Shown: positions 9,479-58,684 of the stretch, piece after piece
How positions within the stretch are numbered: position 1 is the stretch's first letter
Layout: each line of letters starts with the position of its first letter
From: Hyphomonadaceae bacterium
GTDB taxonomy: Bacteria > Pseudomonadota > Alphaproteobacteria > Caulobacterales > Aquidulcibacteraceae
NCBI GenBank assembly: GCA_016791365.1
Contig: JAEUMT010000027.1
Location: forward strand, 124,001-188,000
Direction: 5' to 3'
DNA: 64,000 nucleotides
Program-made: the position numbers and the translations under genes
Notes under the pieces: generated by a model
The model's input: only the letters and a program-made list of their open reading frames with translations
What the model was told of the DNA's origin: nothing
The model's database searches: none

Positions 9479-11074
9479 ATGTCCAGCTATGATTATGTGA
9501 TTGTTGGCGCGGGCTCGGCGGGCTGTGTGTTGGCCCATCGCCTTTCCGAGGATCCGAACGTCAGCGTGCTGCTCATCGAAGCTGGCGGCGAGGACGATCA
9601 TCCATTCATTCACATGCCACGCGCGCTCGCCAAGATCATGGGCAACACGCGCTACATCTGGCCGTTCATGTCGGAGGCGTCGCGAGCTTCCAACGGGGCC
9701 GGAGAATTCTGGGCGCGCGGCCGCACGCTTGGCGGCTCAAGCTCGATCAACGGCATGATGTATGTCCGCGGGCATGCGTCCGATTTCGACGAATTGGCCG
9801 ATGCTGTCGGCGACGACTGGAACTGGTCGCACATCGACGCCGCCTATAAGGCAATGGAGTCGCATGAGCTGGGCCCGTCGCCGTCGCGTGGAGATGCGGG
9901 GCCCTTGCACATCTCGCTTCCCAAGGAGCGATCGCCATTGAGCGAGGACCTGATCAACGCTTGCACCAGCATGGGCATGAAGCGGACCGATGACGTAAAT
10001 GATCCGGCCGGCGAGGAACGCGCCGGCTACGCGCAGTGGACCATTCGCAAAGGTGTCCGTGAAAGCGCCTCGCGCGCGTTCCTCAAACCCGTCCGCAATC
10101 GCCCGAACTTGACCGTGGCTACCAATGTCGTCGTCGACAAAGTCGAGTTCGAGGGCGACCGCGCCGTCGGCGTGGTCGGTCTTCGCGACGGCGCGCCGGT
10201 GGCCTATCGCGCTTCGCGCGAAGTCATCCTGTCGTGCGGTACCATCGGTTCTCCGGCGATCCTGCAGAGATCCGGCATCGGACCAGCGGCGAGTCTGCGC
10301 GAGCGCGGCATCGAAGTGGTAAGAGACAGCTCAGCGGTAGGCGCCAATCTGCGTGAGCACCGTGGGATCGTCATGCAATGGCAGGTCCCCGACGAGCACT
10401 CCGACAATCAGGACTATCGCGGCCTGTCCCTGCTGCTCAGCGTCGCACAATATTATTTGACCCGCACGGGTCCGATGGCGAAGGCGGCGTTTGATATCGG
10501 CGCGTGGTTCAAATCACGACCGGGACTGAACCGCCCCGATGGTCAGATTTTGCTGAGCCCGTTCTCGTTCGACTACACAAGCGCAACACCCAGGGTCGAG
10601 GATTCCGGCGGAATCATTTGTTGCCTTTACATGCTGCGCCCCCAATCGACCGGGACGGTGCTCATAAAATCCAAAGACCCGAACGAGTATCCGGTCATTG
10701 ACGCGAATTATGATTCAGACACCAGCGACAGCAGCACCATGGTCGAGATGATGCGCTACGCGCGTCGGCTGGTGGCGCAATCGCCGTTGTCCAAGTACGC
10801 GCCACGGGAGACGCGGCCCGGCGCCCAGTTTCAAACTGACGCCGAACTACACGAAGCACATCGCCAGATGGGCTACACGAACTATCACGCTGTCGGCACA
10901 TGCCGGGCGGGCAAGGACGAGCAATCCGTGCTCGATCACAAGCTTCGGGTGCGCGGCGTGAACGGGCTGCGCGTCGTCGACGCCTCGATCTTTCCATTTA
11001 TGCCAGCCGGCAACACGAACGCACCTGTGATGGTTCTGGCGTGGCGCGCCGCCGACGTCATCAAGGCCGGCTGA
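9479..11074 (+). CDS. GMC-family FAD oxidoreductase (choline dehydrogenase-like)
   Basis: A 531-residue glucose-methanol-choline oxidoreductase. FAD-binding VIVGAGSAGCVLAHRL is at the N-terminus and GRTLGGSSSINGMMYVRGH is GMC signature 1. GTIGSPAILQRSGIGP is signature 2. The C-terminal active-site histidine lies in NYHAVGTCRAG and the Asn in PAGNTNAPV. Such enzymes oxidise primary or secondary alcohols to aldehydes or ketones, so it could act on hydroxyls introduced by the neighbouring P450s. It is the first gene of the supercluster on this side. A weak match to the cluster operator at 9402-9416 was not accepted. Confidence 0.9.
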   Translation: MSSYDYVIVGAGSAGCVLAHRLSEDPNVSVLLIEAGGEDDHPFIHMPRALAKIMGNTRYIWPFMSEASRASNGAGEFWARGRTLGGSSSINGMMYVRGHASDFDELADAVGDDWNWSHIDAAYKAMESHELGPSPSRGDAGPLHISLPKERSPLSEDLINACTSMGMKRTDDVNDPAGEERAGYAQWTIRKGVRESASRAFLKPVRNRPNLTVATNVVVDKVEFEGDRAVGVVGLRDGAPVAYRASREVILSCGTIGSPAILQRSGIGPAASLRERGIEVVRDSSAVGANLREHRGIVMQWQVPDEHSDNQDYRGLSLLLSVAQYYLTRTGPMAKAAFDIGAWFKSRPGLNRPDGQILLSPFSFDYTSATPRVEDSGGIICCLYMLRPQSTGTVLIKSKDPNEYPVIDANYDSDTSDSSTMVEMMRYARRLVAQSPLSKYAPRETRPGAQFQTDAELHEAHRQMGYTNYHAVGTCRAGKDEQSVLDHKLRVRGVNGLRVVDASIFPFMPAGNTNAPVMVLAWRAADVIKAG

Positions 11075-12014: not shown

Positions 12015-13238
12015 GTGATTGACCCTGAATTGCGCAAGCAAGTCCCCGCGCATGTGAGGGACGACCAGATTGTGATGTACGACTACGTCAGCGATCCACG
12101 CATCGCCAAGGTCGGCGACGTTCAGCTCGGCATGCACCTGCTGCACGAGGAGGCGCCCGACGTGTTCTACTCGCCGTGCAATGGCGGGTTTTGGGTCGTC
12201 ACGCGCCTCGACATCATGTCAAAGATCCTTCCGGACACTGATCACTTCTCGAACAAGGAATTGGTGATCCCACGCATCGTCAGCGATGCCGTGATGATCC
12301 CACTCAACCTCGATCCGCCCGAACATCTTCAGTATCGCATGGTGCTGATGCGCCACTTCGATCCGAAATCGATCCGCGCAATGGAGCCGTTCATCCGCGC
12401 GTGGGCCAACAAGCTGATCGACAAGGTTATCGCACAGGGTCATTGCGAGTTCGCCGAGGAAATCGGCGCGGCCTTTCCGGTCTCGGTGTTCATGGAGCTG
12501 ATGGGCTATCCGCTGGATCAGTTCGAGGAATTCCGCCGCATCGTGCACGCGTTCTTCGCGCCCGAGACGACGCCGGAAGAGCGCGTCAAAGTGCAGACCA
12601 AGATCCTCGAGACGGTCGCCGTCTATTTCGATGAGCGTCGCAAGGAGCCGCGCGACGATCTTGTCAGCAAGCTGTTGCAGGAAAAGGTGTGGGATCGCCC
12701 ACTCACCACCGACGAACTCAACTCGATCGGTTTCCTGCTTTTCCTCGCCGGCCTGGACACTGTCGCCAACACCTTGTCGTTCACCTTCAATTATCTAGCC
12801 CAGGATCAGAAGATGCAGGAGCGGCTGGGCGCGCACCCTGAGATCATCCCCTCCTTTGTCGAAGAGGCGCTGCGCCGGTTCTCGATCGTGCAACAGCCGC
12901 GCCTGGTGAAGGCGGACGTCGAGATCAACGGCGCTCAGATGAAGGCTGGCGAAATGGTGGTGTGCTCGCTGCCGCTCGCCGGCATGGATGACCACCGCAA
13001 CCCGATGCCGGAGGTCTTTGACGTGGACCGCAAGGATCGCGCGCACCTCGCATTCTCGGTGGGACCGCACACGTGCGTTGGCAACCAATTGGCGCGGCTC
13101 GAAATGCGCATCCTGACAGAGGAATGGGTCAGGCGGATTCCGCACTTCTGGCGCAAGGCCGGAACCGAGCCCGAGCGCCGCATCGGCGGCGTCGCGGCGC
13201 TCTCTAAACTCTTTCTCGAATGGCCGAAGCCGAACTGA
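12015..13238 (+). CDS. Cytochrome P450, P450cam (CYP101)-like, copy A1
   Basis: A 407-residue soluble P450 starting with GTG behind GGAGGA. It shows FLAGLDTV (245-249, acid-alcohol pair D248-T249), ExxR at E284-R287 and the heme loop FSVGPHTCVG with Cys354 as thiolate ligand. Its layout follows P450cam: CNGGFWVVTR, HFSNKE, PLNLDPPE, FPVSVFMELMG and EEWVRRIPHF all have counterparts. The residue equivalent to P450cam Tyr96, which binds camphor, is Ala92 here. Electrons probably come from the adjacent ferredoxin and the reductase at 49500-50741. Its paralogue is the P450 at 57459-58673. Confidence 0.93.
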   Translation: MIDPELRKQVPAHVRDDQIVMYDYVSDPRIAKVGDVQLGMHLLHEEAPDVFYSPCNGGFWVVTRLDIMSKILPDTDHFSNKELVIPRIVSDAVMIPLNLDPPEHLQYRMVLMRHFDPKSIRAMEPFIRAWANKLIDKVIAQGHCEFAEEIGAAFPVSVFMELMGYPLDQFEEFRRIVHAFFAPETTPEERVKVQTKILETVAVYFDERRKEPRDDLVSKLLQEKVWDRPLTTDELNSIGFLLFLAGLDTVANTLSFTFNYLAQDQKMQERLGAHPEIIPSFVEEALRRFSIVQQPRLVKADVEINGAQMKAGEMVVCSLPLAGMDDHRNPMPEVFDVDRKDRAHLAFSVGPHTCVGNQLARLEMRILTEEWVRRIPHFWRKAGTEPERRIGGVAALSKLFLEWPKPN

Positions 13239-18195: not shown

Positions 18196-19365
18196 CTACT
18201 TCGCCGCTTCAAGCGCTGCCGTCACGGCGTCCTGAAACATGCGTATCTGCACTTCCATGCCGCCGAGCAGCACTTCCTTGATCGCGCCTGAGCGCAACCC
18301 CTTATCGCATTGCTCCGCCGCCCAATAATCTTCCTTGGCGAACACCTGCTCCATCAGATCGAACGCCTCGCGCATCTTGCCGGCGATACGTTCATCGCGC
18401 GGCGGCGCGTCGTAGAGCTGGTAGTAATCGACTTCGGTCTTGTCGGTCGCCACCGGCCGCACCACACCGAGGCTGATGTAATGCGGGCTAACGACGATGA
18501 TCCCGTTCGGGAACGTGACGTAAGAGAACACCATCATCTTGCGCATTTCGGCGAAGCGGTCGGTGATCCCCGCGCGCTCGAAATTGCCGCGATGCGCGGC
18601 GTTGCGGATATGGGGACCGATGCGGTCGATCATGTTTTCGGAATCGACGCCAAACTGCGCCAGCGAGTCCTTGTGCAAGCGCGTGACGTGATAGGAGTCG
18701 AGCATGGAATCCATGATCAACTTCCAGTTCGCGTTCACCTTGAAGGTCGCCTTATCATAGAGAAAAAGGTTCTTCATATTGAACACGTCGAAGTCGGCGG
18801 CGAGTTCGCCGGTGACGCTCGAGAAGTCCGGCGGATTGTCAGCGTCGAGGCCGACCCAAATCAGCCCGCCCGCTTCCACGCACGGCAGCTCCTTTAGGCC
18901 CAGGTCTTTCTTCTCGAGGCCAGGAAAGATTTCCGGCCGCGGCAAGCCGATCAATTTGCCATCGAGGTCATACGTCCAGGCATGATAGGGACACACCAGC
19001 CGCCCGGTCGTGGCGCGGTCGGACTGGCACAATTTCATGCCGCGGTGACGGCAAACATTCGCGAAAGCATGCGCCGCGCCGTCCTTGGTGCGCGTCACCA
19101 ATACCGGCATGCCGGCGATATCAACGGCGGCGTGTTCGCGTGGATTTGCGATCAGCGCTGAAGGCGCGGCGATGATGGGCGTCCGGCGATAGACCCGCTG
19201 CAGCTCTGCGTCGAAACGCGCGGGATCAACATAAACTGAAGCTTCCACGGTATCGCGCATCTGCGGCAGGCGAATAGCCGCGAGCTCCGGCATGGCGTTC
19301 AACAGCGCCTGCTGACCCTTCGTCAGGACGTCGCGGTGGACGGGTTTTTCAGTGACTTGTTCCAT
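18196..19365 (-). CDS. Rieske non-heme iron oxygenase alpha subunit, copy 1
   Basis: A 389-residue ring-hydroxylating-type oxygenase. The Rieske [2Fe-2S] ligands are C105-R-H107 and C125-P-Y-H128. The mononuclear iron histidines lie in DSYHVTRLHKDS (HxxxxH). It lacks a signal peptide. Start chosen at MEQVTEKP, two bases after the stop of the upstream acyl-CoA dehydrogenase; the longer reading frame upstream is read-through into that gene. It is last in a minus-strand operon of one P450 and four acyl-CoA dehydrogenases. It has a paralogue at 58685-59842. No dedicated Rieske reductase was seen, so one of the ferredoxins may serve. Confidence 0.92.
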   Translation of the reverse strand: MEQVTEKPVHRDVLTKGQQALLNAMPELAAIRLPQMRDTVEASVYVDPARFDAELQRVYRRTPIIAAPSALIANPREHAAVDIAGMPVLVTRTKDGAAHAFANVCRHRGMKLCQSDRATTGRLVCPYHAWTYDLDGKLIGLPRPEIFPGLEKKDLGLKELPCVEAGGLIWVGLDADNPPDFSSVTGELAADFDVFNMKNLFLYDKATFKVNANWKLIMDSMLDSYHVTRLHKDSLAQFGVDSENMIDRIGPHIRNAAHRGNFERAGITDRFAEMRKMMVFSYVTFPNGIIVVSPHYISLGVVRPVATDKTEVDYYQLYDAPPRDERIAGKMREAFDLMEQVFAKEDYWAAEQCDKGLRSGAIKEVLLGGMEVQIRMFQDAVTAALEAAK

Positions 19366-19367
19366 TG

Positions 19368-20435
19368 TTAGGCGCCTGATTTCGATGCGACGGATTCGGT
19401 GAACGCGAGGCGCGCGATCCGCTCCTTGTGTGCGGTCGAACTGCCGAACAGAACCTGGTTGAACTTTGCGCGCTTCAAGTAGAGATGGCAGGGATGCTCC
19501 CAGGTGAAGCCGATGCCGCCATGCAGCTGTATCGCGTCCTCCGCGACGGCGGCATACAGATCGCACGCATAGAATTTCGCGCTCGACGCCAGCGCCGAAG
19601 CGGACTCTTTGGCGCCCACGGCCAAGGCCGCTTGCCGCACGAGCGCCGCGGCCGCTTCCAGTTGCACTTTCCAGTGCGCCGCGCGGTGTTTCAGCGCCTG
19701 GAACGAACCAATCGGCCGCCCGAACTGCTCGCGGATGCCAAGATAGTCGATGGTCCGCTCGAAGATCGCCTGTGCGCCGCCGACGGCGTCGCAGGCAACC
19801 GCAACCGCCAATTGATCTTCGACATTTGCACGCCCGGCGGCATTCAGACCAATGGCGGAATCCTTGGACACGCTCACTGCATCGAGCTGGACGCGGGCGA
19901 CACGGCGGGTGAGGTCGACGATCGCCTGGCTCGTAACTTTGACGCCTTCTTGCGCCGTGCGGATGACAACGAAACCCGCTTCCGTAGGCGCGAGCAGCAG
20001 ATCGACATCCGCTGCAAACAGGACATCTTCCACCATGCCGCTGATGCGGCCGTCGCGCATGCTGACTTTCGTGCGCAACGGATCGGCGACGCTCGCTGTC
20101 AGGGCGCCGCTGACGATGTCAGGCAACACGTCTTTGCGCAGGACAGATGAGCCATGCGCGGCAATGAGGCTCGCGGCGGTCAACGTCGTCAGCGTTGGCG
20201 CGGACGCCGTGATACGGCCGAGTTCTTCATGCAAGACAGCGAGATGCGCGTAGCCTTGACCAAGGCCGCCATCATCGGCGCTGACGCCAAGTCCGAGCCA
20301 ACCCAACGCGGCCATGTCCGACCATAGTTCGCGATCGACCGGCCGGCCTTGTTCGCCCGGAATCGTGATCGCGCGATCGTTCAATGCGCCGCGAATGGCG
20401 TTGCGCAATTCGAGAAGATCGAGCGCTTCGTCCAC
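19368..20435 (-). CDS. Acyl-CoA dehydrogenase family protein (short)
   Basis: A 355-residue acyl-CoA dehydrogenase-fold protein starting with GTG behind AAGGTAGGATC. The N-terminal helical domain (LGWLGLGVSADDGGLGQGYA) and the C-terminal part with GIREQFGRPIGSFQALKH and LHGGIGFTWEHPCHLYLKRA are clear. It ends in a KER-type tail without the GTNEIQ motif of conventional homotetrameric enzymes. Such chains often pair with another to form alpha2beta2 enzymes acting on bulky CoA esters. It follows its likely partner at 20440-21405 with 4 bp between. Confidence 0.85.
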   Translation of the reverse strand: MDEALDLLELRNAIRGALNDRAITIPGEQGRPVDRELWSDMAALGWLGLGVSADDGGLGQGYAHLAVLHEELGRITASAPTLTTLTAASLIAAHGSSVLRKDVLPDIVSGALTASVADPLRTKVSMRDGRISGMVEDVLFAADVDLLLAPTEAGFVVIRTAQEGVKVTSQAIVDLTRRVARVQLDAVSVSKDSAIGLNAAGRANVEDQLAVAVACDAVGGAQAIFERTIDYLGIREQFGRPIGSFQALKHRAAHWKVQLEAAAALVRQAALAVGAKESASALASSAKFYACDLYAAVAEDAIQLHGGIGFTWEHPCHLYLKRAKFNQVLFGSSTAHKERIARLAFTESVASKSGA

Positions 20436-20439
20436 GATC

Positions 20440-21405
20440 CTACCTTGCCTGAACCAGGCGGCCCTGTTGCGCCACTGTCGGCGCGGGCCACAGCTTGGTT
20501 GCAACGGAACGCGCCGCATCGTTCACCCCGCCGACTTCGGCTTGCAACGCCCGCACGCGATAGGTCCAGAAGTGCAGCAAGTGCTCGGTGGTGACGCCCA
20601 TGCCGCCGTGGAACTGGTGCAGGTCAAACAGCAGGCGGCCAACGTTCTGCTGAACGTAGCAGGCGGCCATATCGGCATGAACAGACTCGCCGCTCCATGC
20701 GGCGCGGAGCGCCATGTAATAGGTCGCGCGTGCAATCGCGTGGCACTGGACAAGACGATGCTGCACGCTCTGGAATGAGCCGACCGCCCGCCCGAACACG
20801 TGACGCTGCTTCACATACTCCACCGTGAAGTTTACGGCGCTGTCAGCGGCGCCCGCGGCCTCGGCGGCGATGGCGACGCGCCACCATTGCCGCAATTTGG
20901 GACCGGCGCCGGCAATCCTGCGGCCAGCGCCGAGATCGGGCGCGCGACGGAAGCGGCCGTAGGGAAACGCCAGCACACTCTTGACCGTCTCAATCGCTCC
21001 GGCAGCGACAGGCAGCACGACGACATCGTCGCCAAGATCGATGAGCGCCGTTGTGGCGATCGGAAGATTGCGGTGCGCCTTGTCGAGATCGCGCCCGGCA
21101 ATCAACGCGACGGGCCCATCCACGCCTTCGTTCGCTGGCAGCAACATGGGCGCCACGAGCGCCGATGCGCCCGTTTCCACCAGCACCGGCAGACGCGCCG
21201 CTTCGATGACGATCAGCGCGGCCTCCAGCGCGCCCATTTCGCGCGCGGCGTCGAAGAAGCCGCTGGCCTTGAGCAACGCCTGCAGCCCGGAATGATGATA
21301 GGCGTAACTGAGACGCTCGCCTTGCGGCAGTTCTCCGTGATCCTGCAGGATTGACTGCAGGGCGCTTACCAGCGCCTGCTGGTCTTCGGTGAGATGGAAA
21401 TCCAT
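20440..21405 (-). CDS. Acyl-CoA dehydrogenase family protein (very short subunit)
   Basis: A 321-residue, shortened acyl-CoA dehydrogenase homologue. It has the N-terminal EDQQALVSALQSIL helix, a reduced middle beta domain and the C-terminal HVFGRAVGSFQSVQHRL and FHGGMGVTTEHLLHFW. It lacks the catalytic-Glu and FAD-binding motifs expected in the C-terminal part of full enzymes. It may be the non-catalytic partner in a heteromeric acyl-CoA dehydrogenase with the product of 19368-20435. The start ATG overlaps the preceding stop by 1 bp (TGATG), indicating translational coupling. Confidence 0.82.
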   Translation of the reverse strand: MDFHLTEDQQALVSALQSILQDHGELPQGERLSYAYHHSGLQALLKASGFFDAAREMGALEAALIVIEAARLPVLVETGASALVAPMLLPANEGVDGPVALIAGRDLDKAHRNLPIATTALIDLGDDVVVLPVAAGAIETVKSVLAFPYGRFRRAPDLGAGRRIAGAGPKLRQWWRVAIAAEAAGAADSAVNFTVEYVKQRHVFGRAVGSFQSVQHRLVQCHAIARATYYMALRAAWSGESVHADMAACYVQQNVGRLLFDLHQFHGGMGVTTEHLLHFWTYRVRALQAEVGGVNDAARSVATKLWPAPTVAQQGRLVQAR

Positions 21406-22550
21406 CATTTGCTCCGCGGCAATCCGAGGCCGCGCTGGGCGATCAAGTCCAGCTGGATCTCGTTGGTGCCGCCCGTGATGCCGGCAGGAATGTTGATGCG
21501 ATAATAGTCTTCCAAGAGCACGTTGCCGCCGGCCAGGCCGTTGGGAAACACGTCGCCCAGGAAATTCATGAGGTCGGTGGTCGCTTCCAGCGAAGTGATA
21601 CGCGACAAGTTGGAATCGGTGTTGGCCTCGGACTTCTTCACCCGCTGGTCCACGACCAAGTACGTGAGCAGCCGAGCCGCCTCGAACTTCGACGCCAAGG
21701 CGCCGACGCGCGTCTGGATCACCGGATCGTTGTCGTAGCGGCCCTCTTCGCGAAGCTGCTCAACGGCCAAATGCAACGCCTGCAGGCCGGTGTGATAACG
21801 CGGCACGCCGACGCGCTCAAACGACAGGGCGTGCGTCACGATCTTCCAGCCCTGCCCTTCCTCGCCAACGCGATTGACCACCGGAATCTTCACGTCCGTG
21901 AAGAAGACCTCGTTGAGGTGTCCATCCTTGATCAGGCCCGGGAACGAGGTCACCGAAATGCCGGGCGCGTTCATGGGCGTCAGCAGGACGGTGATGTCCT
22001 TCTTGCCGGGGCCGGTGCGCACCAGCATGAAGCACCAATCGGCGGTGCGCGCGTACGAGGTCCAGATTTTCGAGCCATTGACGATGTAGTGGTCGCCAAC
22101 GCGCTCGGCGCGGGTGCGGAGCGCGGCAAGATCGGTGCCGGCGTTCGGTTCGGAAAAGCCCTGACACCAGATGACGCGTCCGCTGGCGATGCCTTTGAGG
22201 TGCTGCTCCTTCTGCGCCTCAGAGCCAAACGTCATCAACGTCGGCCCGATCCAGTTGATGTTCATGTATTGGGGGCCACGCGGCTCGCCGGCGGCTTTCA
22301 TCTCTTCATTCAGGATGAAGTGACACCAATCGTCGGCGCCGTTGCCGCCATATTGCTTCGGCCAATGCGGCACCAGCAGGCCCCGCTCAGCCAAGCCTGC
22401 ACAGAAATCGCGCGAGAATTCCACCTGCAGATCGGACGCGTAGCTTTCCGGGACGTAGCGTTCATCCCAGTCATCAGGCAGCAGTTCGTCAAGCGCGGTG
22501 CGAACGCGCTTGCGATACTCTTCCTGCTCTGCTGTCCAAGCGAATTCCAT
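21405..22550 (-). CDS. Acyl-CoA dehydrogenase family protein
   Basis: A 381-residue acyl-CoA dehydrogenase with WCQGFSEPNAGTDLAALRTRA, VNGSKIWTSYA, FERVGVPRYHTG and the C-terminal GITGGTNEIQLDLIAQRGLGLPR. The residue before GT is Gly, not the Glu of medium-chain enzymes, so any catalytic base lies elsewhere. It forms part of a tightly packed run of four acyl-CoA dehydrogenase genes and is 15 bp from the upstream copy. Its high similarity in layout to 22566-23780 suggests duplication. Confidence 0.88.
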   Translation of the reverse strand: MEFAWTAEQEEYRKRVRTALDELLPDDWDERYVPESYASDLQVEFSRDFCAGLAERGLLVPHWPKQYGGNGADDWCHFILNEEMKAAGEPRGPQYMNINWIGPTLMTFGSEAQKEQHLKGIASGRVIWCQGFSEPNAGTDLAALRTRAERVGDHYIVNGSKIWTSYARTADWCFMLVRTGPGKKDITVLLTPMNAPGISVTSFPGLIKDGHLNEVFFTDVKIPVVNRVGEEGQGWKIVTHALSFERVGVPRYHTGLQALHLAVEQLREEGRYDNDPVIQTRVGALASKFEAARLLTYLVVDQRVKKSEANTDSNLSRITSLEATTDLMNFLGDVFPNGLAGGNVLLEDYYRINIPAGITGGTNEIQLDLIAQRGLGLPRSK

Positions 22551-22565
22551 GTCTCTCCCCGTCCC

Positions 22566-23780
22566 TCAGCCGGCCCCCGCCGGCTGTGGTTCGCGCGGCA
22601 GCCTCAGGCCGCGCTCCGCCACGATGTTCTTCTGAATTTCGGTGCTGCCGCCCGAGATCGTCCATGCCCACGAATACAGATAGTCCTGCATCCAATAGCC
22701 GGTCTCGTTGCCGCCCCCCATCAACACCGCTTGCAAATGCTGCGCGCCCGCGCCTCCGATCGTCACCCCAAGCGCTGTGAAATCACGCAGCAGTTCACTG
22801 TAGTAGATTTTGATGATCGACGGCTCGACGCCGGCTTTGCCGCCGCGCAGCACCTGCATCAGCATCTCGTTGACCAGGAACCGCAACGCTTGGATGCGCA
22901 CATGCACATCAACGAGGCGGCGGCGGATTTCGTCATCGTCGATCAGCCGCCCGCCCGCGGGCGCCGGCGATTGCGCGTCGCTCAGCAACAACTCGAAACC
23001 GACGCGCATGCGCTCAGCGAGTTCAAGTATGGTGAGCCCACGCTCCGAGGACAGCGTCGATTGCGCCACCGCCCAGCCATTGTTCTCCTGCCCCACGATG
23101 TTCTCCGCGGGGATTTCGACGTCATCCAGAAATATCTCATTGAAATGCGACGCGCCGGTAATCTGCTTGATCGGCCGCAGCGTGACGCCCGGAGTCTTCA
23201 AATCAAGAATGAAATACGTAATGCCCCGCGTCTTGGAGGACTTGGGATCGGTGCGCGTCAGCAGAAGGCAAAAATGCGCGTGGTGCGCGTTTGAAGACCA
23301 GGTCTTCTGGCCGTTCACAACGAAGCGATCACCGCGGCGCTCAGCGCGCGTGCGCAGGCTCGCAAGATCAGATCCGGCGTTCGGTTCGGAAAAGCCCTGA
23401 CACCAGATTTCCTCTCCGCTTAGGACCGCAGGAAGGTGGCGACGGCGTTGCTCCTCAGTGCCCCATTCCAGCAATGTCGCCGGCACGTGATGAAGCGCGA
23501 TAAAATAGAGAATGAGCCGCGGCGCGCCGGCGCGGGCGATTTCCTCGTAGAGCACGATCTGCTGGGCGAAACTGAAGCCGCCCCCGCCCCATGCTTTCGG
23601 CCAATGAGGCGCGCCGAAGCCGCCTTCCATCATGCGACGGAACCAGAATTTCTGAAACGCGACGTGCTCGTCTTCTGAAGCGCCGCGCATCTTGTCCTGC
23701 CAATCGGCGGGAAGATTGGCGGCAAGCCACGCGCGCACGTCGGCGCGGAATGGTTCGAGGTCCTTCAGCTCTTGCAGCAT
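22566..23780 (-). CDS. Acyl-CoA dehydrogenase family protein
   Basis: A 404-residue acyl-CoA dehydrogenase. It contains IWCQGFSEPNAGSDLASLRTRAERRGDR, VNGQKTWSSNAHHAHFC, SERGLTILELAERMR and a C-terminal SGGSTEIQKNIVAERGLRLPR. The SSERG segment may supply the helix-G region where some FadE enzymes keep their base. It lies 18 bp downstream of P450 B2. It probably introduces an alpha-beta double bond in a branched or cyclic acyl-CoA. Confidence 0.88.
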   Translation of the reverse strand: MLQELKDLEPFRADVRAWLAANLPADWQDKMRGASEDEHVAFQKFWFRRMMEGGFGAPHWPKAWGGGGFSFAQQIVLYEEIARAGAPRLILYFIALHHVPATLLEWGTEEQRRRHLPAVLSGEEIWCQGFSEPNAGSDLASLRTRAERRGDRFVVNGQKTWSSNAHHAHFCLLLTRTDPKSSKTRGITYFILDLKTPGVTLRPIKQITGASHFNEIFLDDVEIPAENIVGQENNGWAVAQSTLSSERGLTILELAERMRVGFELLLSDAQSPAPAGGRLIDDDEIRRRLVDVHVRIQALRFLVNEMLMQVLRGGKAGVEPSIIKIYYSELLRDFTALGVTIGGAGAQHLQAVLMGGGNETGYWMQDYLYSWAWTISGGSTEIQKNIVAERGLRLPREPQPAGAG

Positions 23781-24992: not shown

Positions 24993-25028
24993 TGCCATCT
25001 CCACTTCCCTCCATTTGTTCGCATTTCG

Positions 25029-25069
25029 CACTAATGTCTCATTAGTGATCATTGCTTGGGGGGTGTCAA
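25029..25069 (-). promoter_or_regulatory. Promoter with overlapping inverted repeat upstream of P450 B2
   Basis: On the minus strand TTGACA (25069-25064), a 17-bp spacer and ACTAAT (25046-25041) form a sigma70-like promoter. A perfect inverted repeat, CACTAATG-TCT-CATTAGTG at 25029-25047, covers the -10 element, as a repressor site would. This sequence is unrelated to the cluster-wide operator. It splits the long minus-strand run into two transcription units, the lower beginning with P450 B2. Confidence 0.65.
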
Positions 25070-25110
25070 GGCGTTGCCCAGCCTCTGGCGCAGGGAAGTC
25101 GGGCATGGTC

Positions 25111-28849: not shown

Positions 28850-30076
28850 TCACATCCGTTCGATGATCGCCGCCGGTGCAAGTCCACCCGCCGCACACAT
28901 AGTGACGAGACCAATATTGGCGTCGCTGCGCTCAAGTTCATCGAGCAGTGTGCCGGCGAGGATGGCGCCGGTTGCGCCGATCGGATGGCCCAGCGCCATG
29001 GCGCCGCCGTTGACGTTGATCTTGTCGGGGTCCACGTCGAGGTCGCGCATGAACTTCAGCGGCACAACCGCGAACGCTTCGTTGACCTCGAACAGATCGA
29101 TGTCGCCCACATTCATGCCCGCTTGCTTCAACGCCTTCTTCGCAGCCGGAACCGGCGCGTTCAGCATCAATGTCGGATCGTCGCCAACTGTCGCGATCGA
29201 ACGAACACGAGCACGCGGCTTCAAGCCGTGCGCCTTGGCGTATTCCGGCGTCGCCAACAGCAGCGCGCCGGCGCCATCCACGACGCCCGAGCTCGTGCCC
29301 GCTGTGTGCATGTACCGTATTTGAATGTCGGGAAAGACCTGGCGGATCAGCGTTCCATACGTCGTTCCCGACGGATCGATTTCGCGATCGAAAAACGCCT
29401 CGAATGCCGGCTTCAAACCCGCGAGCGCCGCCGCGGTGGTCTGTGGTCGAGGATATTCTTCATGATCCAGCGCGATCCCGCCGTCGGCATTGCGGACTGG
29501 AACCAGGCTGCGGCTGAACCGACCCTCTTTTATGGCGCGATCGGCCCGCTGCTGGCTTTGCAAAGCCAGATCATCCAGCTCCTCACGCTGAAAGCCCTCA
29601 AGTGTGGCGACGAGATCCGCGCAGACGCCCTGATGTGGTTGCGGAATGCGTTTGCGTAGATCGAGATTGCCGGAGTCCAGCATGAATTCGCGCTGCAACG
29701 TGCGTGTGTAGGACATTTGCTCGACGCCGCCAGCCACGACCAATTGCTGGGCGCCCGACATCACGCCCATCGCGGCGACATTGAACGCCGTAAGGCCGCT
29801 GCCGCAAAACCGGTCAAGCGAGAACCCTGGAACGGTCGTCGGATAACCTGCGTCCAGCACCGCCATGCGGGCGAGATCGAGGCCCTGCTTGCCCTGCTGG
29901 GTGTTCACGCCGGCAATGACGTCGTCGACATCCGCCCGCTCCATGCCTGTACGTTCGGCGAGCGCGGTCAGGAGCGTCGAAAATATCCGCTGTGGGTGGA
30001 GTTCCGACAGGCCGCCGCCCGGTTTTCCCGCGCCTCGCGGCGTTCTTACGGCGTCAATAATCCAGGCCTCGCCCAC
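28850..30076 (-). CDS. Acetyl-CoA acyltransferase (thiolase)
   Basis: A 408-residue degradative thiolase. DRFCGSGLTAFNVAAMG contains the nucleophilic Cys near residue 90, GGAMALGHPIGATGA the catalytic His, and MCAAGGLAPAAIIERM the second Cys. It would cleave 3-ketoacyl-CoA in beta-oxidation and may also split acetoacetyl-CoA produced through BKACE and the CoA-transferase. It is the first gene of a minus-strand operon. A cluster operator copy lies 22 bp upstream. Confidence 0.92.
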   Translation of the reverse strand: MGEAWIIDAVRTPRGAGKPGGGLSELHPQRIFSTLLTALAERTGMERADVDDVIAGVNTQQGKQGLDLARMAVLDAGYPTTVPGFSLDRFCGSGLTAFNVAAMGVMSGAQQLVVAGGVEQMSYTRTLQREFMLDSGNLDLRKRIPQPHQGVCADLVATLEGFQREELDDLALQSQQRADRAIKEGRFSRSLVPVRNADGGIALDHEEYPRPQTTAAALAGLKPAFEAFFDREIDPSGTTYGTLIRQVFPDIQIRYMHTAGTSSGVVDGAGALLLATPEYAKAHGLKPRARVRSIATVGDDPTLMLNAPVPAAKKALKQAGMNVGDIDLFEVNEAFAVVPLKFMRDLDVDPDKINVNGGAMALGHPIGATGAILAGTLLDELERSDANIGLVTMCAAGGLAPAAIIERM

Positions 30077-32589: not shown

Positions 32590-33372
32590 TCAGTCTTCGG
32601 ACCAAACCGGACGTCGCTTCTCGGCAAAAGCGCGCGGCCCTTCGATCGCGTCCCGGGACGCCCGCATCGCCCGTACGCCTTGCCACTCCCATTGTCTGGC
32701 GATTGCCTCGGCCAGCGGGAGATCGCACCCAAGCATCACGGCTTCCTTCGCCGCTTGCACCGCCACCGGGCTGCAGTCCGCGATCTGTGCGGCGAGTTGA
32801 AGCGCCGTCTCAAGCGCCTTTCCCGGCGCCGTGACATCACTTACGAACCCCAAGCCACGCCCCTCTTCCGCAGTAACAGAGCGCGCCGTCAGGATCATGC
32901 TCATCGCGCGCTTGACGCCGATCGCGCGTGGCAGCCGGTGTAAGCCGCCGGCGAGGGCGGCAAGACCAACCTTTGGCTCCGGCAAAGCGAAGGTCGCGTT
33001 TGACGACGCCACGATGATGTCGCTGGCGAGAGCGATCTCGAACCCTCCCCCGAATGCAACGCCATTGACGGCCGCGACGACCGGTTTTTTGAGATCGAAG
33101 CGGTTGGCCAACCCTCCAAATCCCGAGGGGGGCATATCGCGTGAACCGCCTGCGGCGTAGTGCTTAAGGTCGTTGCCCGCTGAAAACGCGCGCTCTCCCG
33201 CGCCGGTAATCACCAGCACGCGAAGCGCTGGGTCATTTGCAAACGCATCGATGACCGCATGGCATTCGAAATGCGCTGGCGAATGAAGCGCGTTCATGAC
33301 CTCTGGCCGGTTCAGAGTAAGAACGAGCGTATTGCCCTCGCGCCGGACGGTGACAAATTGGTAGTCGCTCAC
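32590..33372 (-). CDS. Enoyl-CoA hydratase/isomerase family protein
   Basis: A 260-residue crotonase. GERAFSAGNDLKHY and VAFGGGFEIALASDI form the oxyanion hole; LPEPKVGLAALAGGLHRLPRAIG has the glutamate region typical of carnitinyl-CoA dehydratase-like members. It is last in a five-gene minus-strand operon (kinase-like protein, three SDRs, crotonase) and overlaps the upstream SDR by 4 bp. Confidence 0.88.
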   Translation of the reverse strand: MSDYQFVTVRREGNTLVLTLNRPEVMNALHSPAHFECHAVIDAFANDPALRVLVITGAGERAFSAGNDLKHYAAGGSRDMPPSGFGGLANRFDLKKPVVAAVNGVAFGGGFEIALASDIIVASSNATFALPEPKVGLAALAGGLHRLPRAIGVKRAMSMILTARSVTAEEGRGLGFVSDVTAPGKALETALQLAAQIADCSPVAVQAAKEAVMLGCDLPLAEAIARQWEWQGVRAMRASRDAIEGPRAFAEKRRPVWSED

Positions 33373-35720: not shown

Positions 35721-36755
35721 CTAAACCAGCCGCAGCGCGCGCTCGAACAACGCGACAGTCCGCGCATGAAAGCGATCGCCGATTTCCTTTGGCGCCTTGC
35801 CGGCGCAGGCGCGGGCGTACGTGCCTTCCAGCAGGATACCGAGCTTGTAGCAGGCCAGCACCACATACCAGTCCATGGCCGAAAGATCGCGTTCAGACCG
35901 TTCCCGATAATGTGCGAGCAGCTCATCGGCGCTGGGAAATCCCTCCCAAGGCTCGATCTTCATCGACGTCGGATCGTCCGAGCGCGGCCAAGTCGTCAGC
36001 ACCCAGCCCAGATCGATAAGCGGATCGCCAATGGTGGCGAGCTCCCAGTCAACGATGGCGGCAAGTCCGGGACCGCTGTTGCTGAACATGACGTTGGCGA
36101 GGTGATAGTCGCCGTGAAGAATGCCGGGCTTGAAGGTCGAGGGTCGATTGCGTTCGAGCCAGTCGCCGACGCGCTCAACCGGCTGTGCGAGATCGACGCC
36201 GCTCCAGCCGCTCAGCCCGGCATACCCTTCGAACTGCTTCCGCCAACGCCCTACCTGCCGCTCTAGAAATCCCTCGGCCCGGCCAAAACCAGCGAGCCCA
36301 ACGGCAGTGTAATCAACTTCGCCAAGACGAAGCGCGCCGTCCACCAAGGCAAATCCCATCCCGCGCCGGAGCTCTGGACTGCCGGCGTGCAGCGCCGGCA
36401 TGCCGGTCGTGACATTGAAGCCATCGATCGCCTGCATCAGGTAGAAATTCGCCCCTAGAACATCGGGCTCCTCACACGCCGCGATGAGCCGCGGGTGGGG
36501 CACGTCAGTATGAGCAATCGCGGACAGAACCTGAATCTCGCGCCTGATCGTCTCGTTGGCCTCGGGACGCGCGTGACTTGAAGGCCGGCGCAAGACGTAG
36601 CGTGCGCCGTCGCGGGTGAAAGCCAGCAACAGATTTTGCGTTCCGCCCGCCAGCACCTTTTCATCGCCGATCGGCCCGCTGCCGAGTGCGTGGCGGTCCA
36701 TCCAGGCGGCCAGCGCGCCGGCATCCACAAGGGCCCGCCAAGCCTCAGCGCTCAT
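35721..36755 (-). CDS. APH-fold phosphotransferase (ACAD10/11 N-domain-like)
   Basis: A 344-residue kinase of the aminoglycoside phosphotransferase superfamily. LAGGTQNLLLAFTRDGARYVLRRPS forms the N-lobe, LHGDYHLANVMFSN the catalytic loop and VDWELATIGDPLIDLGWVL the metal-binding aspartate segment. Homologues fused or adjacent to acyl-CoA dehydrogenases (ACAD10/11, bacterial LvaA) phosphorylate 4-hydroxyacyl-CoAs so the hydroxyl can be eliminated. A role of that kind is more likely here than antibiotic resistance. It is first in an operon with three SDRs and a crotonase. An operator copy lies 42 bp upstream. Confidence 0.83.
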   Translation of the reverse strand: MSAEAWRALVDAGALAAWMDRHALGSGPIGDEKVLAGGTQNLLLAFTRDGARYVLRRPSSHARPEANETIRREIQVLSAIAHTDVPHPRLIAACEEPDVLGANFYLMQAIDGFNVTTGMPALHAGSPELRRGMGFALVDGALRLGEVDYTAVGLAGFGRAEGFLERQVGRWRKQFEGYAGLSGWSGVDLAQPVERVGDWLERNRPSTFKPGILHGDYHLANVMFSNSGPGLAAIVDWELATIGDPLIDLGWVLTTWPRSDDPTSMKIEPWEGFPSADELLAHYRERSERDLSAMDWYVVLACYKLGILLEGTYARACAGKAPKEIGDRFHARTVALFERALRLV

Positions 36756-36969: not shown

Positions 36970-37404
36970 ATGGCCTATAGTTTCGAGCAGCACAAAATTG
37001 TCGGCGCGATCGCCGCCGACGACGACTATTGGCGCGGGCTCGAAGACGGGGTTTTCAAGCTGCCGCGCTGCGACCGGTGCAAGACCTGGACATGGCCCGC
37101 GCACTTTCGCTGCGGACACTGCGGCAGCTGGGACTTCGAATGGGTGGCGCTCGAACCCAAGGGCAAGATCTTCACTTGGACACGCACCCAATATGCGTTC
37201 GACCGCGTGCTCGAACGCAAGGAGGACGTTCCATACGTGACCATCGTTGCCGAAATTCCCGAAGCCAACGGCGCACGGGTCATGGGCTTGTTGAAGGGCG
37301 ATGAAAGCGGTTTGCGCATCGGCGCCGACGTGCGCGGCACAATCGATCCCCCGAGCGCCAAGAGCAAATTCTATCCGAGCATCCGCTGGAACATCGAGCG
37401 CTAA
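36970..37404 (+). CDS. DUF35 OB-fold/zinc-ribbon protein
   Basis: A 144-residue protein of the DUF35 (ChsH2 C-domain-like) family. A rubredoxin-like zinc ribbon is formed by C34, C37, C48 and C51, followed by an OB fold (KGKIFTWTRTQYAF...). Such proteins bind and activate thiolase-fold lipid-transfer proteins, as with Ltp2 in steroid side-chain degradation. The next gene, 28 bp on, encodes exactly such a partner. AAGGTGG precedes the ATG. Confidence 0.88.
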   Translation: MAYSFEQHKIVGAIAADDDYWRGLEDGVFKLPRCDRCKTWTWPAHFRCGHCGSWDFEWVALEPKGKIFTWTRTQYAFDRVLERKEDVPYVTIVAEIPEANGARVMGLLKGDESGLRIGADVRGTIDPPSAKSKFYPSIRWNIER

Positions 37405-37432
37405 GCGGTTCACGAGAAACAAGGAGATATCC

Positions 37433-38599
37433 GTGAGCAAGTTTCGTGGCGCAGCGGCGATCGTCGGCATTGGTCAGACGCCTTACTACAAGCGGGCGAC
37501 GTCGCCCGAACCCGAAGTAAAGCTCGCGCTGCGCGCCATCACCGCGGCCGCTGACGATGCCGGCATTGATGTGCGCGACATCAATGGGTTTGTCTCATAT
37601 GCCTCGGAGCGCAGCGACCCCGCGAAACTCATGCCCGCGCTTGGCACCCGCGAAGTGAAGTTCGCCTCACTCGTGTGGTTTCACGGCGGGGGCCTGCCCG
37701 CCACGCTCAATATCGCAACCGCCGCGATCATGGCGGGGCAAGCGGATGTCGTTGCGGTTTACCGGTCCATGGCGGAGAGCAGCAGCCAGCGCTTGCGGGT
37801 GATCGTTGCACAGAACGACACCTCTTCGCAGTACCTGGTCAACGGACTGGATTCTCCGGCGCAAATTCTGGCGTTGCGCGCGCAGCGCATGATGGAATTT
37901 CACGGCGTGCCGCAATCGGCTTTGTACGCCACGGTGCAAGCCTCCTACTATCACGCCAAGAACAATCCCAGAGCCTACGGCCGCAATACCGAGATGAGCG
38001 CCGAGATCTACAACAATGCGCGCATGATCTCAGAGCCGTACCGCTTGTTCGACTGCTCGCGGGAAAATGACGCCGCCGGCTGCGTTCTGGTCGTATCCGC
38101 GGAACGTGCGAAGGATCTGAAACAAAAGCCCGCCTACATTCTCTCCGCGCCCATGGGCACGATGGAAGGCGGCGGCGCGCTGGAGGAAAACTGGCGCCCT
38201 TACTACGCCACGGCCGGTCAGACGGAGTTGGCGGAACGCATGTGGCGAGAGTCGGGCTACGGGCCCAAGGACGTCGACGTCGCGCAAATCTATATGAACA
38301 TGAATTCGATGGGCATCGGGGCCATGCTTGATCACGGCTTCTTCGCCATGGAGGACGCCGGCGCCTTCTGTACGTTTGACAACCTCACAGCGCCCTCGGG
38401 CAAGCTCCCGATCAACACCTCCGGCGGCGACCTCGGCGAGGGCTTTATCCACGGCTTCGGTCTTGTGCCGGAGGCGGTGCGCCAAGTCCGCGGAACGTCC
38501 CCCAACCAGGTCCCCGGCGCCAAACTCTCACTCGTTACCGGCGGTCCCGGCGACCTTATGAGCAGCACCGCCCTTCTGGGCAGCGAAGAAACGCTTTAA
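37433..38599 (+). CDS. Ltp-type thiolase-fold protein (probable acyl-CoA aldol lyase)
   Basis: A 388-residue member of the SCP-x/Ltp nondecarboxylating thiolase group, GTG start behind AAGGAGATAT. AAIVGIGQTPYYKR opens the fold and HGFGLVPEAVRQVRGTSPNQVPGA closes it. The segment that holds the nucleophilic Cys in true thiolases reads VWFHGGGLPATLN (81-93) and has no Cys, and there is no GHPxGATG motif. With the DUF35 partner upstream this points to a retro-aldol cleavage of a beta-hydroxyacyl-CoA, as by Ltp2, releasing a ketone and a short acyl-CoA. The exact substrate is unknown. Confidence 0.82.
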   Translation: MSKFRGAAAIVGIGQTPYYKRATSPEPEVKLALRAITAAADDAGIDVRDINGFVSYASERSDPAKLMPALGTREVKFASLVWFHGGGLPATLNIATAAIMAGQADVVAVYRSMAESSSQRLRVIVAQNDTSSQYLVNGLDSPAQILALRAQRMMEFHGVPQSALYATVQASYYHAKNNPRAYGRNTEMSAEIYNNARMISEPYRLFDCSRENDAAGCVLVVSAERAKDLKQKPAYILSAPMGTMEGGGALEENWRPYYATAGQTELAERMWRESGYGPKDVDVAQIYMNMNSMGIGAMLDHGFFAMEDAGAFCTFDNLTAPSGKLPINTSGGDLGEGFIHGFGLVPEAVRQVRGTSPNQVPGAKLSLVTGGPGDLMSSTALLGSEETL

Positions 38600-38631: not shown

Positions 38632-40149
38632 ATGAGCGGCTTTACCATTACGCGGGCACTGCAGTGGTGGCGGCGCGAGCACCCTGAGCGCATCGCGGTG
38701 CACTATGAAGGCGACGAGGTCAGCTTCGCCGAACTCTACGATTGGGCGGCGCGCATTGCCGATCACCTGCGCACCAACGGCGTAAAGCCGGGCGATCGCG
38801 TTTCAGGTTTTGCCGAGAATTCGCTCGACTACGCTGCGCTCATCATCGGCATCGTACTGGCAGGAGCGATCCACGCACCGATCAGCTTTCGCTCCAGCGC
38901 ACGCGAGTTGCGCCGAACGCTCGATGTCCTGACTCCCACGTTGGTGTTTGCCGACAATCAGCGCGCGGCAACCGCGACGGAAGCTCTCGGGCTGGACGAA
39001 GCCGGCAAGCTACGCTCGCTTGGAGAAATCGGCCCTCTAAAGAATGCTCCAACACCCCGCGCGGCACACACGCCTCACCCCGACGACCCGCTGTTCATTA
39101 TCAGCACCAGCGGCTCCACCGGCGAGCCCAAAGGCGTCGTATATACGCACCGCTCCTTCATGACCTACGCGGCCGAGTTCGCGATGATGGAGCCGGAGTG
39201 CTGCAATGGCGGCAGCGTTTTCGCGACGGGCCCGTTCTCCTCATCCTCCGGCACGATTCTGCTGATCCAGTTCCTGGCGAGTGGGGCCAGCGTCTATTCT
39301 CAACGTCATTTCGACGCGGCGGAAGCGCTGCGTCTTATCCTCGACAAACGTATCCGGGTGTTCCTCGCGTCGACGATCTTTTTCGAGCGCATCGCGGCCT
39401 TGCCGGAGTTTGAGACCGCCGATCTCTCCTGCGTGAAGTTTGCGCAGATCGGCGGCGCGCGCGTGAACCCGGCGCTATTGTCGCGCTACAGGCAGCGCGG
39501 CCTGATCCTGCGCCAAGCCTACGGCTGCACCGAAGCCGGCGGCGCCTGGGCGGCGCGTGACGATACGGCGTTGACCGAGCCGGAAAAGTGCGGCGCAGGC
39601 GCGATGTTCACGGAATTCGCCATCAAGGACGAGGATGGCGGTTTCGCGCCGCCCCATGTGCCCGGCGAAATTCTCATCCGCAGCGCCTGCCTCTCGGCCG
39701 GCTACTGGAACAACGAAAAAGCCACGGCGGAAGCGTTCCGCGACGGCTGGCTTCATACCGGCGATCGCGGCGTCGCCGACGAGCGGGGCGCGATCACCTT
39801 CATCGACCGCATCAAGGATATCATTATTTCCGGCGGCATGAATATCTCCGCGATGGAGGTCGAGCGCGTGGTGGCTGAGGCGCCTGGAGTTCGGGAAGTT
39901 GCGGTGCTCGCGGCGAAGGATGATCAGTTCGGTGAGACGCCGATGGCCGTCATTTATGGCGATCCGAAAACCATCAGCGTCCCGGATATCATCCAGCACT
40001 GCAATGCGCACCTCGCGAACTTCAAGGTGCCGCGCTACGTCGCGGTCGAAACCGAGCCGCTGCCACGGCTTCCCTCAGGCAAAATCTCAAAAGTACTGCT
40101 TCGGCAAAAATACGAAGCCGCGCATACGTTCCTGCCTAAGGTCCGTTGA
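38632..40149 (+). CDS. AMP-forming acyl-CoA synthetase
   Basis: A 505-residue ANL-superfamily ligase. FIISTSGSTGEPKGVVYTH is the AMP-binding P-loop; QAYGCTEAGG, GYWNNEKATAEAFRDGWLHTGD and RIKDIIISGGMNIS follow in the expected order. The catalytic Lys lies in LPSGKISKVLL near the C-terminus. It would activate a carboxylic acid intermediate to its CoA ester. It follows the Ltp gene by 32 bp and precedes a crotonase by 15 bp. Confidence 0.9.
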   Translation: MSGFTITRALQWWRREHPERIAVHYEGDEVSFAELYDWAARIADHLRTNGVKPGDRVSGFAENSLDYAALIIGIVLAGAIHAPISFRSSARELRRTLDVLTPTLVFADNQRAATATEALGLDEAGKLRSLGEIGPLKNAPTPRAAHTPHPDDPLFIISTSGSTGEPKGVVYTHRSFMTYAAEFAMMEPECCNGGSVFATGPFSSSSGTILLIQFLASGASVYSQRHFDAAEALRLILDKRIRVFLASTIFFERIAALPEFETADLSCVKFAQIGGARVNPALLSRYRQRGLILRQAYGCTEAGGAWAARDDTALTEPEKCGAGAMFTEFAIKDEDGGFAPPHVPGEILIRSACLSAGYWNNEKATAEAFRDGWLHTGDRGVADERGAITFIDRIKDIIISGGMNISAMEVERVVAEAPGVREVAVLAAKDDQFGETPMAVIYGDPKTISVPDIIQHCNAHLANFKVPRYVAVETEPLPRLPSGKISKVLLRQKYEAAHTFLPKVR

Positions 40150-40164: not shown

Positions 40165-40938
40165 ATGAGTGACAACGTCCGGCTTGAGCTCAACGGCGCC
40201 GTCGCTACAGTTGCGATCAATCGTCCGCAGGCCCGCAACACGCTGCGCCGCGGCACCGGGGCTGAAGTCTATCAAGCGGTGAAAGAGGTCGCGGACAACA
40301 AGGATGTGCGCGTTCTTATTTTCCGCGGCGTCGGCGACGATTTCTGCTGCGGCGCTGATATGAAGACGCCGGAAAGCCCGACCGACCCCAAGCCCGAGCC
40401 CTCCTTCGTCACCTACCAGGTCGCCGTGCTGCTGCATGAAATGCCGCAAGTCACCATCTCGGCGATCCGTGGTGGTTGCGCCGGCGCCGGGTTTGGCTGG
40501 GCCTGCGCCACCGACTTTCGCGTCGGCGACCACAGCGTGGTGATGAACACGGCGTTTCTGGAAGTCGGCGTCGCTGGCGACATGGGCGTGCCGTGGACTC
40601 TGCCGCGCCTTATCGGCGCTAGCCGCGCACGCGACCTCACCTTCTTTCCGCGCAAAGTGCGAAGCGAGGAAGCCCACGCGCTGGGGCTGCTGGATCGCCT
40701 ATGGCCCACCACCGCATTCGAGGCTGAGCTTGAGACCTTCGCCGCGACGCTGGCTGGCGCCGCGCCGCTTGCGCTTGCCGCGCTCAAGGCCAATTTCGTG
40801 CAGGCTGAGCAAACCGACTTTCGCACTTTCATCGCACTCGAGGCGGAACGGCATATTCGCCTGCTCGCAACCGGCGATCGCTACGAAGCCTTCCGCGCGT
40901 GGCTCGATAAGCGGCCGCCGAAATTCACCGGCCACTAA
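40165..40938 (+). CDS. Enoyl-CoA hydratase/isomerase family protein
   Basis: A 257-residue crotonase. DDFCCGADMKTPE and RGGCAGAGFGWACATDF form the oxyanion hole; LEVGVAGDMGVPWTLPRLIG has Asp near a usual acid position. It closes a four-gene operon: DUF35, Ltp, ligase, crotonase. It may provide the hydroxyacyl-CoA substrate of the Ltp lyase, because no MaoC-type hydratase was found nearby. Confidence 0.88.
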   Translation: MSDNVRLELNGAVATVAINRPQARNTLRRGTGAEVYQAVKEVADNKDVRVLIFRGVGDDFCCGADMKTPESPTDPKPEPSFVTYQVAVLLHEMPQVTISAIRGGCAGAGFGWACATDFRVGDHSVVMNTAFLEVGVAGDMGVPWTLPRLIGASRARDLTFFPRKVRSEEAHALGLLDRLWPTTAFEAELETFAATLAGAAPLALAALKANFVQAEQTDFRTFIALEAERHIRLLATGDRYEAFRAWLDKRPPKFTGH

Positions 40939-47292: not shown

Positions 47293-47368
47293 AAATTGCT
47301 CGAATATCCGGCCAGCCTATGGAGCAGCGGGCGCCTGTCAACGCATCGACGTGCAACTTCGCACGGAT

Positions 47369-47383
47369 GCGCGATATTCGTTC
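47369..47383. promoter_or_regulatory. Cluster operator (copy 8), BKACE promoter
   Basis: GCGCGATATTCGTTC, a weaker copy 61 bp upstream of the BKACE gene. With copy 7 it gives each divergent promoter its own site. Confidence 0.6.
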
Positions 47384-47443
47384 ACGACGTCAGACGATCA
47401 TGGTACCTTCGCAGTCTCGAACCGGTCAGAAGCGAGCTCCGAG

Positions 47444-58673: not shown

Positions 58674-58684
58674 GCAAGCCTCCC

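Follow-up and report, generated by a model that had tools for sequence, protein, structure and literature searches.

The operon described here lies in a 64-kb stretch of DNA (the window) and consists of four closely spaced genes on the same strand, in the order DUF35 protein, Ltp-like protein, CoA ligase and ECHb. It is part of a catabolic island that also holds short-chain dehydrogenases and an IclR-type regulator. The features on which our argument draws are the following.

9479..11074, + strand: GMC oxidoreductase (PF00732/PF05199), a frequent neighbor in the clade described below
12015..13238, + strand: cytochrome P450 of the CYP101 kind (p450 Pfam domain; best PDB matches CYP101D5, CYP101J2 and P450cam)
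13580-14749, 23799-25106 and 57459-59372: other P450s (p450 Pfam domain)
18196..19566, - strand: Rieske oxygenase alpha subunit (PF00355, PF00848), candidate source of a beta-hydroxyl; start probably near 19326
19368..23780, - strand: four genes for acyl-CoA dehydrogenases of a heteromeric type resembling that of steroid pathways (Pfam ACAD domains)
28850..30076, - strand: true thiolase with a GHPIGATG motif (PF00108/PF02803; NF004682 over its cut-off)
32590..33372, - strand: ECHa, crotonase-fold protein with both hydratase glutamates, a possible hydratase in trans (PF00378, 201 bits)
36970..37404, + strand: DUF35 protein, 144 aa, with a C4 zinc ribbon and an OB domain; proposed partner subunit
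37433..38599, + strand: Ltp2-like thiolase-fold protein, 388 aa, GTG start; proposed retro-aldolase
38632..40149, + strand: AMP-forming acyl-CoA ligase, encoded by the operon's third gene (PF00501, 227 bits)
40165..40938, + strand: ECHb, crotonase-fold protein without the two hydratase glutamates (PF00378, 139 bits); not a conserved member of the module
47351-48319: beta-keto acid cleavage enzyme (BKACE) of the same island; a relative with 78% identity lies near the L020 locus

Within the beta-oxidation cluster, a gene for an APH/EcKL-type kinase-like protein (35721-36755) is divergent from the DUF35 gene, and the end of the catabolic island is occupied by an ORF of 1182 aa with AAA_11/AAA_12 domains (60235-63783).

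The DUF35 protein scores above the Pfam cut-offs for both zf-ChsH2 (25 bits; cut-off 23.2) and OB_ChsH2_C (35 bits; cut-off 27.1), and Cys34, Cys37, Cys48 and Cys51 make up its zinc ribbon. It is the only PF01796 protein in the host genome (3.46 Mb, 99% complete). Its best PDB matches, with modest E-values, are 9myr_B, the DUF35 protein of CtShy (E 1e-6), and 6ok1_B, ChsH2(DUF35) (E 7e-6); because these are the DUF35 subunits of two aldolases, we count them in favor of a retro-aldolase. The pairing with the Ltp gene is not due to chance, since the two genes directly adjoin in 79 of 80 related loci among the matches listed. In the loci that share a Phe344 residue with the window (see below), the DUF35 gene is directly upstream of the Ltp gene (58/59 among the matches listed), and in the sister loci with Tyr344 it is directly downstream (21/21 among the matches listed); the adjoining DUF35 proteins always carry CxxC...CxxC (58/58 and 21/21, respectively, among the matches listed). 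The one locus in which no adjoining DUF35 gene was found beside the Ltp gene is L025, of the Phe344 clade. L025 (10001-11161) and L033 share a 50-kb contig of the same family as the window, and this contig carries three Ltp copies with 69, 64 and 50% identity to the window protein, the first of which is the one without an adjoining DUF35 gene.

The mechanically called ORF of the Ltp gene opens at an ATG (37301) inside the DUF35 gene. The true start is likely the GTG at 37433, which has AAGGAG ahead of it and stands 28 bases past the DUF35 stop. The resulting protein matches Pfam Thiolase_C_1 with 71 bits (cut-off 28), and its best NCBIfam model, NF005892, reaches 307 bits, below the model's cut-off of 469. 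The whole genome holds a single relative at E<=0.001, and no match was found in phage records. No Cys is present in the VWFHGGG segment, the thiolase Cys (ACASGG) of 7yvy aligns with Gly85, and the region of the GHPxGATG loop reads SGGDLGEGFIHG. As none of the three Cys of the protein (208, 217 and 313) is plausible as a replacement nucleophile, we reject a thiolase; Cys208 is also not universal in the Phe344 clade, being Ser in L045. SCP2-thiolases, PhlC, BbsB and archaeal thiolase share the thiolase fold with the window protein, and several of them have a DUF35 partner, but these enzymes use a nucleophilic Cys where the window protein has Gly85, and their identity to it is 16-23% by structure alignment.

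The best PDB sequence match of the Ltp protein is Ltp2 of Thermomonospora curvata (6ok1_A, E 3.7e-56), followed by the Sphaerobacter 'thiolase' 4u4e (E 1e-32), with the remainder much weaker. An AlphaFold2 model built with 40 sequences has a mean pLDDT of 86 and a pTM of 0.90. When its Foldseek matches were re-ranked with VIA-align 2, 6ok1 came first (Z 51.7, rmsd 2.1 over 375 residues, 35% identity) and Sal-Shy, 9myr, second (Z 45.2, rmsd 2.5 over 372 residues, 23% identity). That the two nearest structures are both retro-aldolases supports a retro-aldolase here. An earlier, sequence-only reading of this DNA had described a zinc-ribbon DUF35 protein ahead of an Ltp-type protein with no Cys in VWFHGGG and no GHPxGATG motif, and had likened the pair to ChsH2-Ltp2; the Pfam domains, the alignment to 7yvy and the top rank of 6ok1 in both sequence and predicted fold bear out this description.

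We took the residue roles in Ltp2 from PMC12329534, where, in the part of the article available, Tyr294 of TcLtp2 is the base, Tyr344 the acid and His296 a residue of the oxyanion hole, and where CtSal uses Tyr302 and Cys304, the latter located at the His296 position and essential. At the positions of Tyr294, His296 and Tyr344, our alignment places Tyr287, Asn289 and Phe338 of the window protein, which keeps only the base of the three; the YDHF of TcLtp2 becomes YMNM. IpfD has Tyr, Ala and Tyr at the same positions. The loss of the acid Tyr344 and of His296, as read from the alignment, was not foreseen by the sequence-only reading. Because two of the three TcLtp2 residues are changed, and because Cys304 is essential in Sal, the changed site could mean another reaction.

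The window pair can be compared with two known aldolases. With TcLtp2-TcChsH2(DUF35) (6ok1), a steroid C3 side-chain aldolase, it shares a whole-length match, an Ltp2-like fold, an adjoining zinc-ribbon DUF35 partner, the base Tyr and the lack of a thiolase Cys; it differs in YMNM for YDHF, in Phe for Tyr344 and in its free-standing DUF35 protein, whereas that of TcChsH2 is fused to a MaoC domain. With CtSal-CtShy(DUF35) (9myr), a bile-acid C5 aldolase, it shares the fold, the DUF35 partner and the base Tyr, but identity is only 23%, Asn289 replaces the Cys304 of the YDCY motif, the ribbon is C4 rather than C3H1, and there is no MaoC fusion.

The Phe at the Tyr344 position marks a single clade. 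In samples not picked by motif, Tyr and Asn are present in each of 13 order-level homologs, a number that includes the window, with Phe344 in 10 and Tyr344 in 3. Among 28 of 29 newly fetched class-level loci (L115 was left out, its frame being lost at a contig end), the base Tyr is present in 28/28, position 344 is Tyr in 27 and His in one, and at position 296 there are 13 Asn, 8 Cys, 4 Ala and 3 His. The base Tyr is invariant in our alignments A1 and A2. The combined set of 122 rows among the matches listed contains 66 with Asn and Phe344, 34 with YENF and Tyr344 and 22 others; motif frequencies among the 80 loci listed are biased because one of the two patterns used to find these loci contains Y[EMD]N. 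In a quick maximum-likelihood tree (118 rows after four near-duplicates were dropped, motif columns omitted, no bootstrap), all 64 Asn/Phe344 rows lie on one side of a single branch with an SH-aLRT of 100 and one change. The clade spans Pseudomonadota and Actinomycetota, with members in Sphingomonadales, other Alpha-, Beta- and Gammaproteobacteria, Mycobacteriaceae, Pseudonocardiaceae and Streptomyces, and the window protein groups with sphingomonad sequences (84-89% identity). IpfD falls outside it on a long branch whose place is unsure, and CtSal is also on a long branch. The Phe344 clade is widespread and apparently uncharacterized, and it forms a branch of a known enzyme family. To our knowledge no activity has been assigned to any of its members, and in the literature searched on DUF35/Ltp/oxygenase modules we found no description of the clade, its active site or its neighborhood pattern.

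The absence of a MaoC partner, also remarked on in the sequence-only reading, holds across the window: a profile made from 23 MaoC sequences matched none of its 584 ORFs of at least 60 aa, and the DUF35 gene is neither fused to nor encoded with a MaoC hydratase. All PF01575 and PF13452 matches in the genome lie outside the window (C4:124001-188000), at C4 ~70.8 kb, at C4 319 kb, on C37 and on C44. Throughout the Phe344 clade, a neighboring MaoC gene is typically absent. With the 23-seed profile, which finds this genome's unseeded double-MaoC protein and may miss divergent MaoC, MaoC was found near 1/59 Phe344 loci and 5/21 Tyr344 loci among the matches listed (1/59 and 4/21 with an earlier, weaker profile). 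The single Phe344 case among the matches listed is L082, where the gene is on the other strand, 2.4 kb off. A blastp match to MaoC in L032, found by neither profile, looks like a thioesterase-type hotdog protein. Two Tyr344-type loci, L073 and L085, each carry two MaoC-type genes 2.6-4.5 kb upstream of the Ltp/DUF35 pair, an arrangement reminiscent of the ChsH1-ChsH2 hydratase pair.

What accompanies the pair instead can be seen from the 80 loci among the matches listed, for which up to 10 kb on each side was searched, contig-end loci included, with Rieske, P450, ligase, crotonase, GMC and dehydrogenase profiles seeded with the window proteins. Among these matches, the Phe344 and Tyr344 loci differ in the presence of a Rieske protein (43/59 versus 4/21), a P450 (46/59 versus 2/21), either oxygenase (54/59 versus 6/21), a CoA ligase (47/59 versus 4/21) and a GMC oxidoreductase (32/59 versus 0/21); the counts are 28/59 versus 4/21 for crotonase and 33/59 versus 14/21 for acyl-CoA dehydrogenase. 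When only loci with full flanks are counted, a Rieske protein or P450 is present in 44/46 Phe344 and 4/14 Tyr344 loci among the matches listed. Fisher tests give p <1e-4 for Rieske, P450, ligase and GMC, values that are descriptive because the counts ignore kinship among loci that lack independence and because Phe344 had a single origin. The Rieske motif CxH...CxxH is carried by 49/53 Rieske matches. The pattern has exceptions on both sides: 5/59 Phe344 loci among the matches listed have no oxygenase within reach, and four Bradyrhizobium loci of the Tyr344 type (L088, L089, L092 and L099) stand beside a Rieske gene, as do the pairs on two annotated plasmids of Delftia and Burkholderia, possibly of this type, which counts against a story of Phe344 alone.

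A precedent for such a module exists in ibuprofen degradation, in which, according to the available part of PMC9195938, a CoA ligase acts first, ibuprofenyl-CoA is then dihydroxylated by a dioxygenase, and retro-aldolase cleavage yields propionyl-CoA and 4-isobutylcatechol; IpfDE is there a DUF35/Ltp retro-aldolase without MaoC. A hydratase-free DUF35-Ltp module is thus already known in kind. On pIBU218 of R. wittichii MPO218 the gene order is Rieske alpha, Rieske beta, Ltp-like, OB-fold and AMP ligase, which we identified as ipfABDEF by order and annotated functions, and no MaoC annotation is found in the stretch around these five genes. The window shares with IpfD-IpfE the free-standing pair, the ligase adjoining it and a Rieske oxygenase, here ~18 kb off in another transcription unit. 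The two systems belong to different branches, with 29% identity between the Ltp proteins; IpfD has YDAF with Tyr344, IpfE has no CxxC zinc ribbon, and the Ltp gene precedes the DUF35 gene. Beside ipfDE, pIBU218 carries a second Ltp/OB-fold pair (50938-52502; L103:10939-12503) with a full Ltp2 site (YDHF, Tyr344), which adjoins a crotonase and a CaiB-type CoA transferase and is also present on pRW412a (L100).

Taken together, the likeness to Ltp2, the fact that the pair cannot act as a standard thiolase and the lack of a nearby MaoC make an aldol-lyase module, that is, a putative DUF35/Ltp retro-aldolase, the best reading of the sequence and the structural model. We infer that the DUF35 and Ltp proteins would form a two-subunit enzyme acting on a beta-hydroxylated CoA thioester, and that this substrate would be cyclic and terpenoid-like. 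The operon ligase would make the thioester, and cleavage would release an acyl-CoA together with a ketone, aldehyde or phenol. We propose that Tyr287 takes the proton of the beta-hydroxyl and that Asn289 probably holds the enolate; because the acid corresponding to Tyr344 of Ltp2 is missing, the enolate would have to take up its proton from another group or from water. As in ibuprofen degradation, an oxygenase (Rieske or P450) is the most likely source of the beta-hydroxyl, rather than MaoC or ECHb. We consider this explanation as a whole, an oxygenase-placed hydroxyl and a ligase-made thioester feeding a DUF35/Ltp retro-aldolase, to be reasonably probable. It retains what the sequence-only reading had put forward as a possible aldol lyase module, namely the pair, the likeness to ChsH2-Ltp2, the lost thiolase residues and the missing MaoC, and departs from it on the operon crotonase as a substitute for MaoC.

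The main rival concerns the source of the hydroxyl. Dehydrogenases would make an enoyl-CoA, ECHa or a MaoC protein encoded elsewhere would hydrate this to a tertiary beta-alcohol, which would be the substrate cleaved by the DUF35-Ltp pair. The distance of the window's Rieske gene from the pair, together with the presence in the cluster of steroid-type heteromeric acyl-CoA dehydrogenases (IpdE2-like, below cut-off; best PDB matches 6wy9 and 4x28) and of ECHa with both glutamates intact makes such hydration in trans possible, and the four MaoC-bearing genes elsewhere in the genome and the crotonase in nearly half of the Phe344 neighborhoods also speak for it. Likewise, the hydratase and aldolase domains of C. 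testosteroni function when separately expressed, according to the available part of PMC12502768. Against it stands the distribution of the candidate genes. Among the seven closest relatives in the matches listed, a Rieske relative is on the Ltp contig in all seven, roughly 7 to 21 kb away (79, 70, 65, 60, 43, 42 and 39% identity), as opposed to an intact ECHa relative in three and an ECHb ortholog in two, so that an oxygenase is the better-supported source. ECHa relatives of at least 50% identity occur in five of these seven genomes. The L020 locus gives three blastp pieces of ECHa and its genome no whole match at the threshold used, which suggests that its copy may be split. Moreover, in 17/46 full-flank Phe344 loci among the matches listed, the 10-kb flanks hold an oxygenase and a ligase gene but lack genes for crotonase and acyl-CoA dehydrogenase; several of these loci are mycobacterial and arranged as P450, Rieske, DUF35, Ltp, ligase, and L082, the locus with MaoC, is one of them. 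We therefore regard hydration in trans as unlikely, if the most serious of the alternatives.

It is less likely still that the Ltp protein catalyzes some other Claisen- or acyl-type reaction or serves as a non-catalytic CoA-binding partner. The loss of the acid and of His296 would fit such a role, and Phe338, Ser209 and Arg210 are fixed in 66/66 Asn/Phe344 rows among the matches listed, whereas the other rows nearly always have Cys at the Ser209 position and mostly Gln, Met or Leu at that of Arg210. The Ser209 position may be that of the CoA-contacting Ser of classical thiolase. Acyl transferases and thiolases (PhlABC, BbsAB, archaeal thiolase) likewise have a DUF35-thiolase architecture, but these use a catalytic Cys that the window protein lacks, and the nearest structures are Ltp2 and Sal. 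Tyr287 and Asn289 are, in addition, strictly kept across the Phe344 clade rows among the matches listed, which suggests catalysis.

The suggestion of the sequence-only reading that the operon crotonase replaces MaoC is very improbable: ECHb does lie 15 bases past the ligase gene, as its orthologs in L020 and L023 lie just past theirs, but it and both orthologs, whose identities to it are 63 and 54%, have Gly and Phe at the positions of the two glutamates, and nothing above 37% identity was found at the threshold used in the other five of the seven closest relatives among the matches listed. The glutamate positions are those of rat crotonase, and ECHa has a glutamate at both. We accordingly reject ECHb as a hydratase on its residues and its poor conservation. 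Its unusual site, GAGFG ... NTAFL.VGVAGDM in the window and L023 and similar in L020, points to a crotonase-fold enzyme with a different reaction; an isomerase or hydrolase acting elsewhere in the pathway is more likely.

Returning to the retro-aldolase proposal, the substrate is perhaps an alicyclic, terpenoid-like acyl-CoA, which we offer as no more than a fair guess. A steroid pathway proper is not established: the dehydrogenases look to be of the steroid type, yet the P450 tested is CYP101-like. The resin-acid (dit) pathway was also considered, and likened by description only; ditF is named a putative sterol carrier-like protein in the available part of PMC13063091.

More tentatively, and with less confidence than we place in the retro-aldolase itself, the Phe344 clade might constitute a third, undescribed class of DUF35-coupled aldolases, built on a Tyr base and an Asn without the acid Tyr344 or Cys304, perhaps aided by Ser209 and Arg210, and dedicated to oxygenase-placed hydroxyls, which would let Pseudomonadota and Actinomycetota cut at blocked carbons without a hydratase. 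If the retro-aldolase proposal holds, retro-aldol cleavage by DUF35-Ltp pairs would extend beyond steroid side chains and would not depend on MaoC hydratases, IpfDE would not be a one-off, and a large clade whose members often bear the annotation 'lipid-transfer protein' or 'acetyl-CoA acetyltransferase' would consist of enzymes that cleave carbon-carbon bonds in hydroxylated cyclic acids. With Tyr344 naturally missing, the clade also offers a direct test of enolate reprotonation in the DUF35-Ltp active site.

Plasmids of Delftia and Burkholderia plantarii (L105 and L106) carry an Ltp/OB-fold pair with 46 and 41% identity to the window, adjoining a Rieske oxygenase, a PDR/VanB reductase and CoA transferases, a plasmid-borne module of oxygenase plus cleavage.
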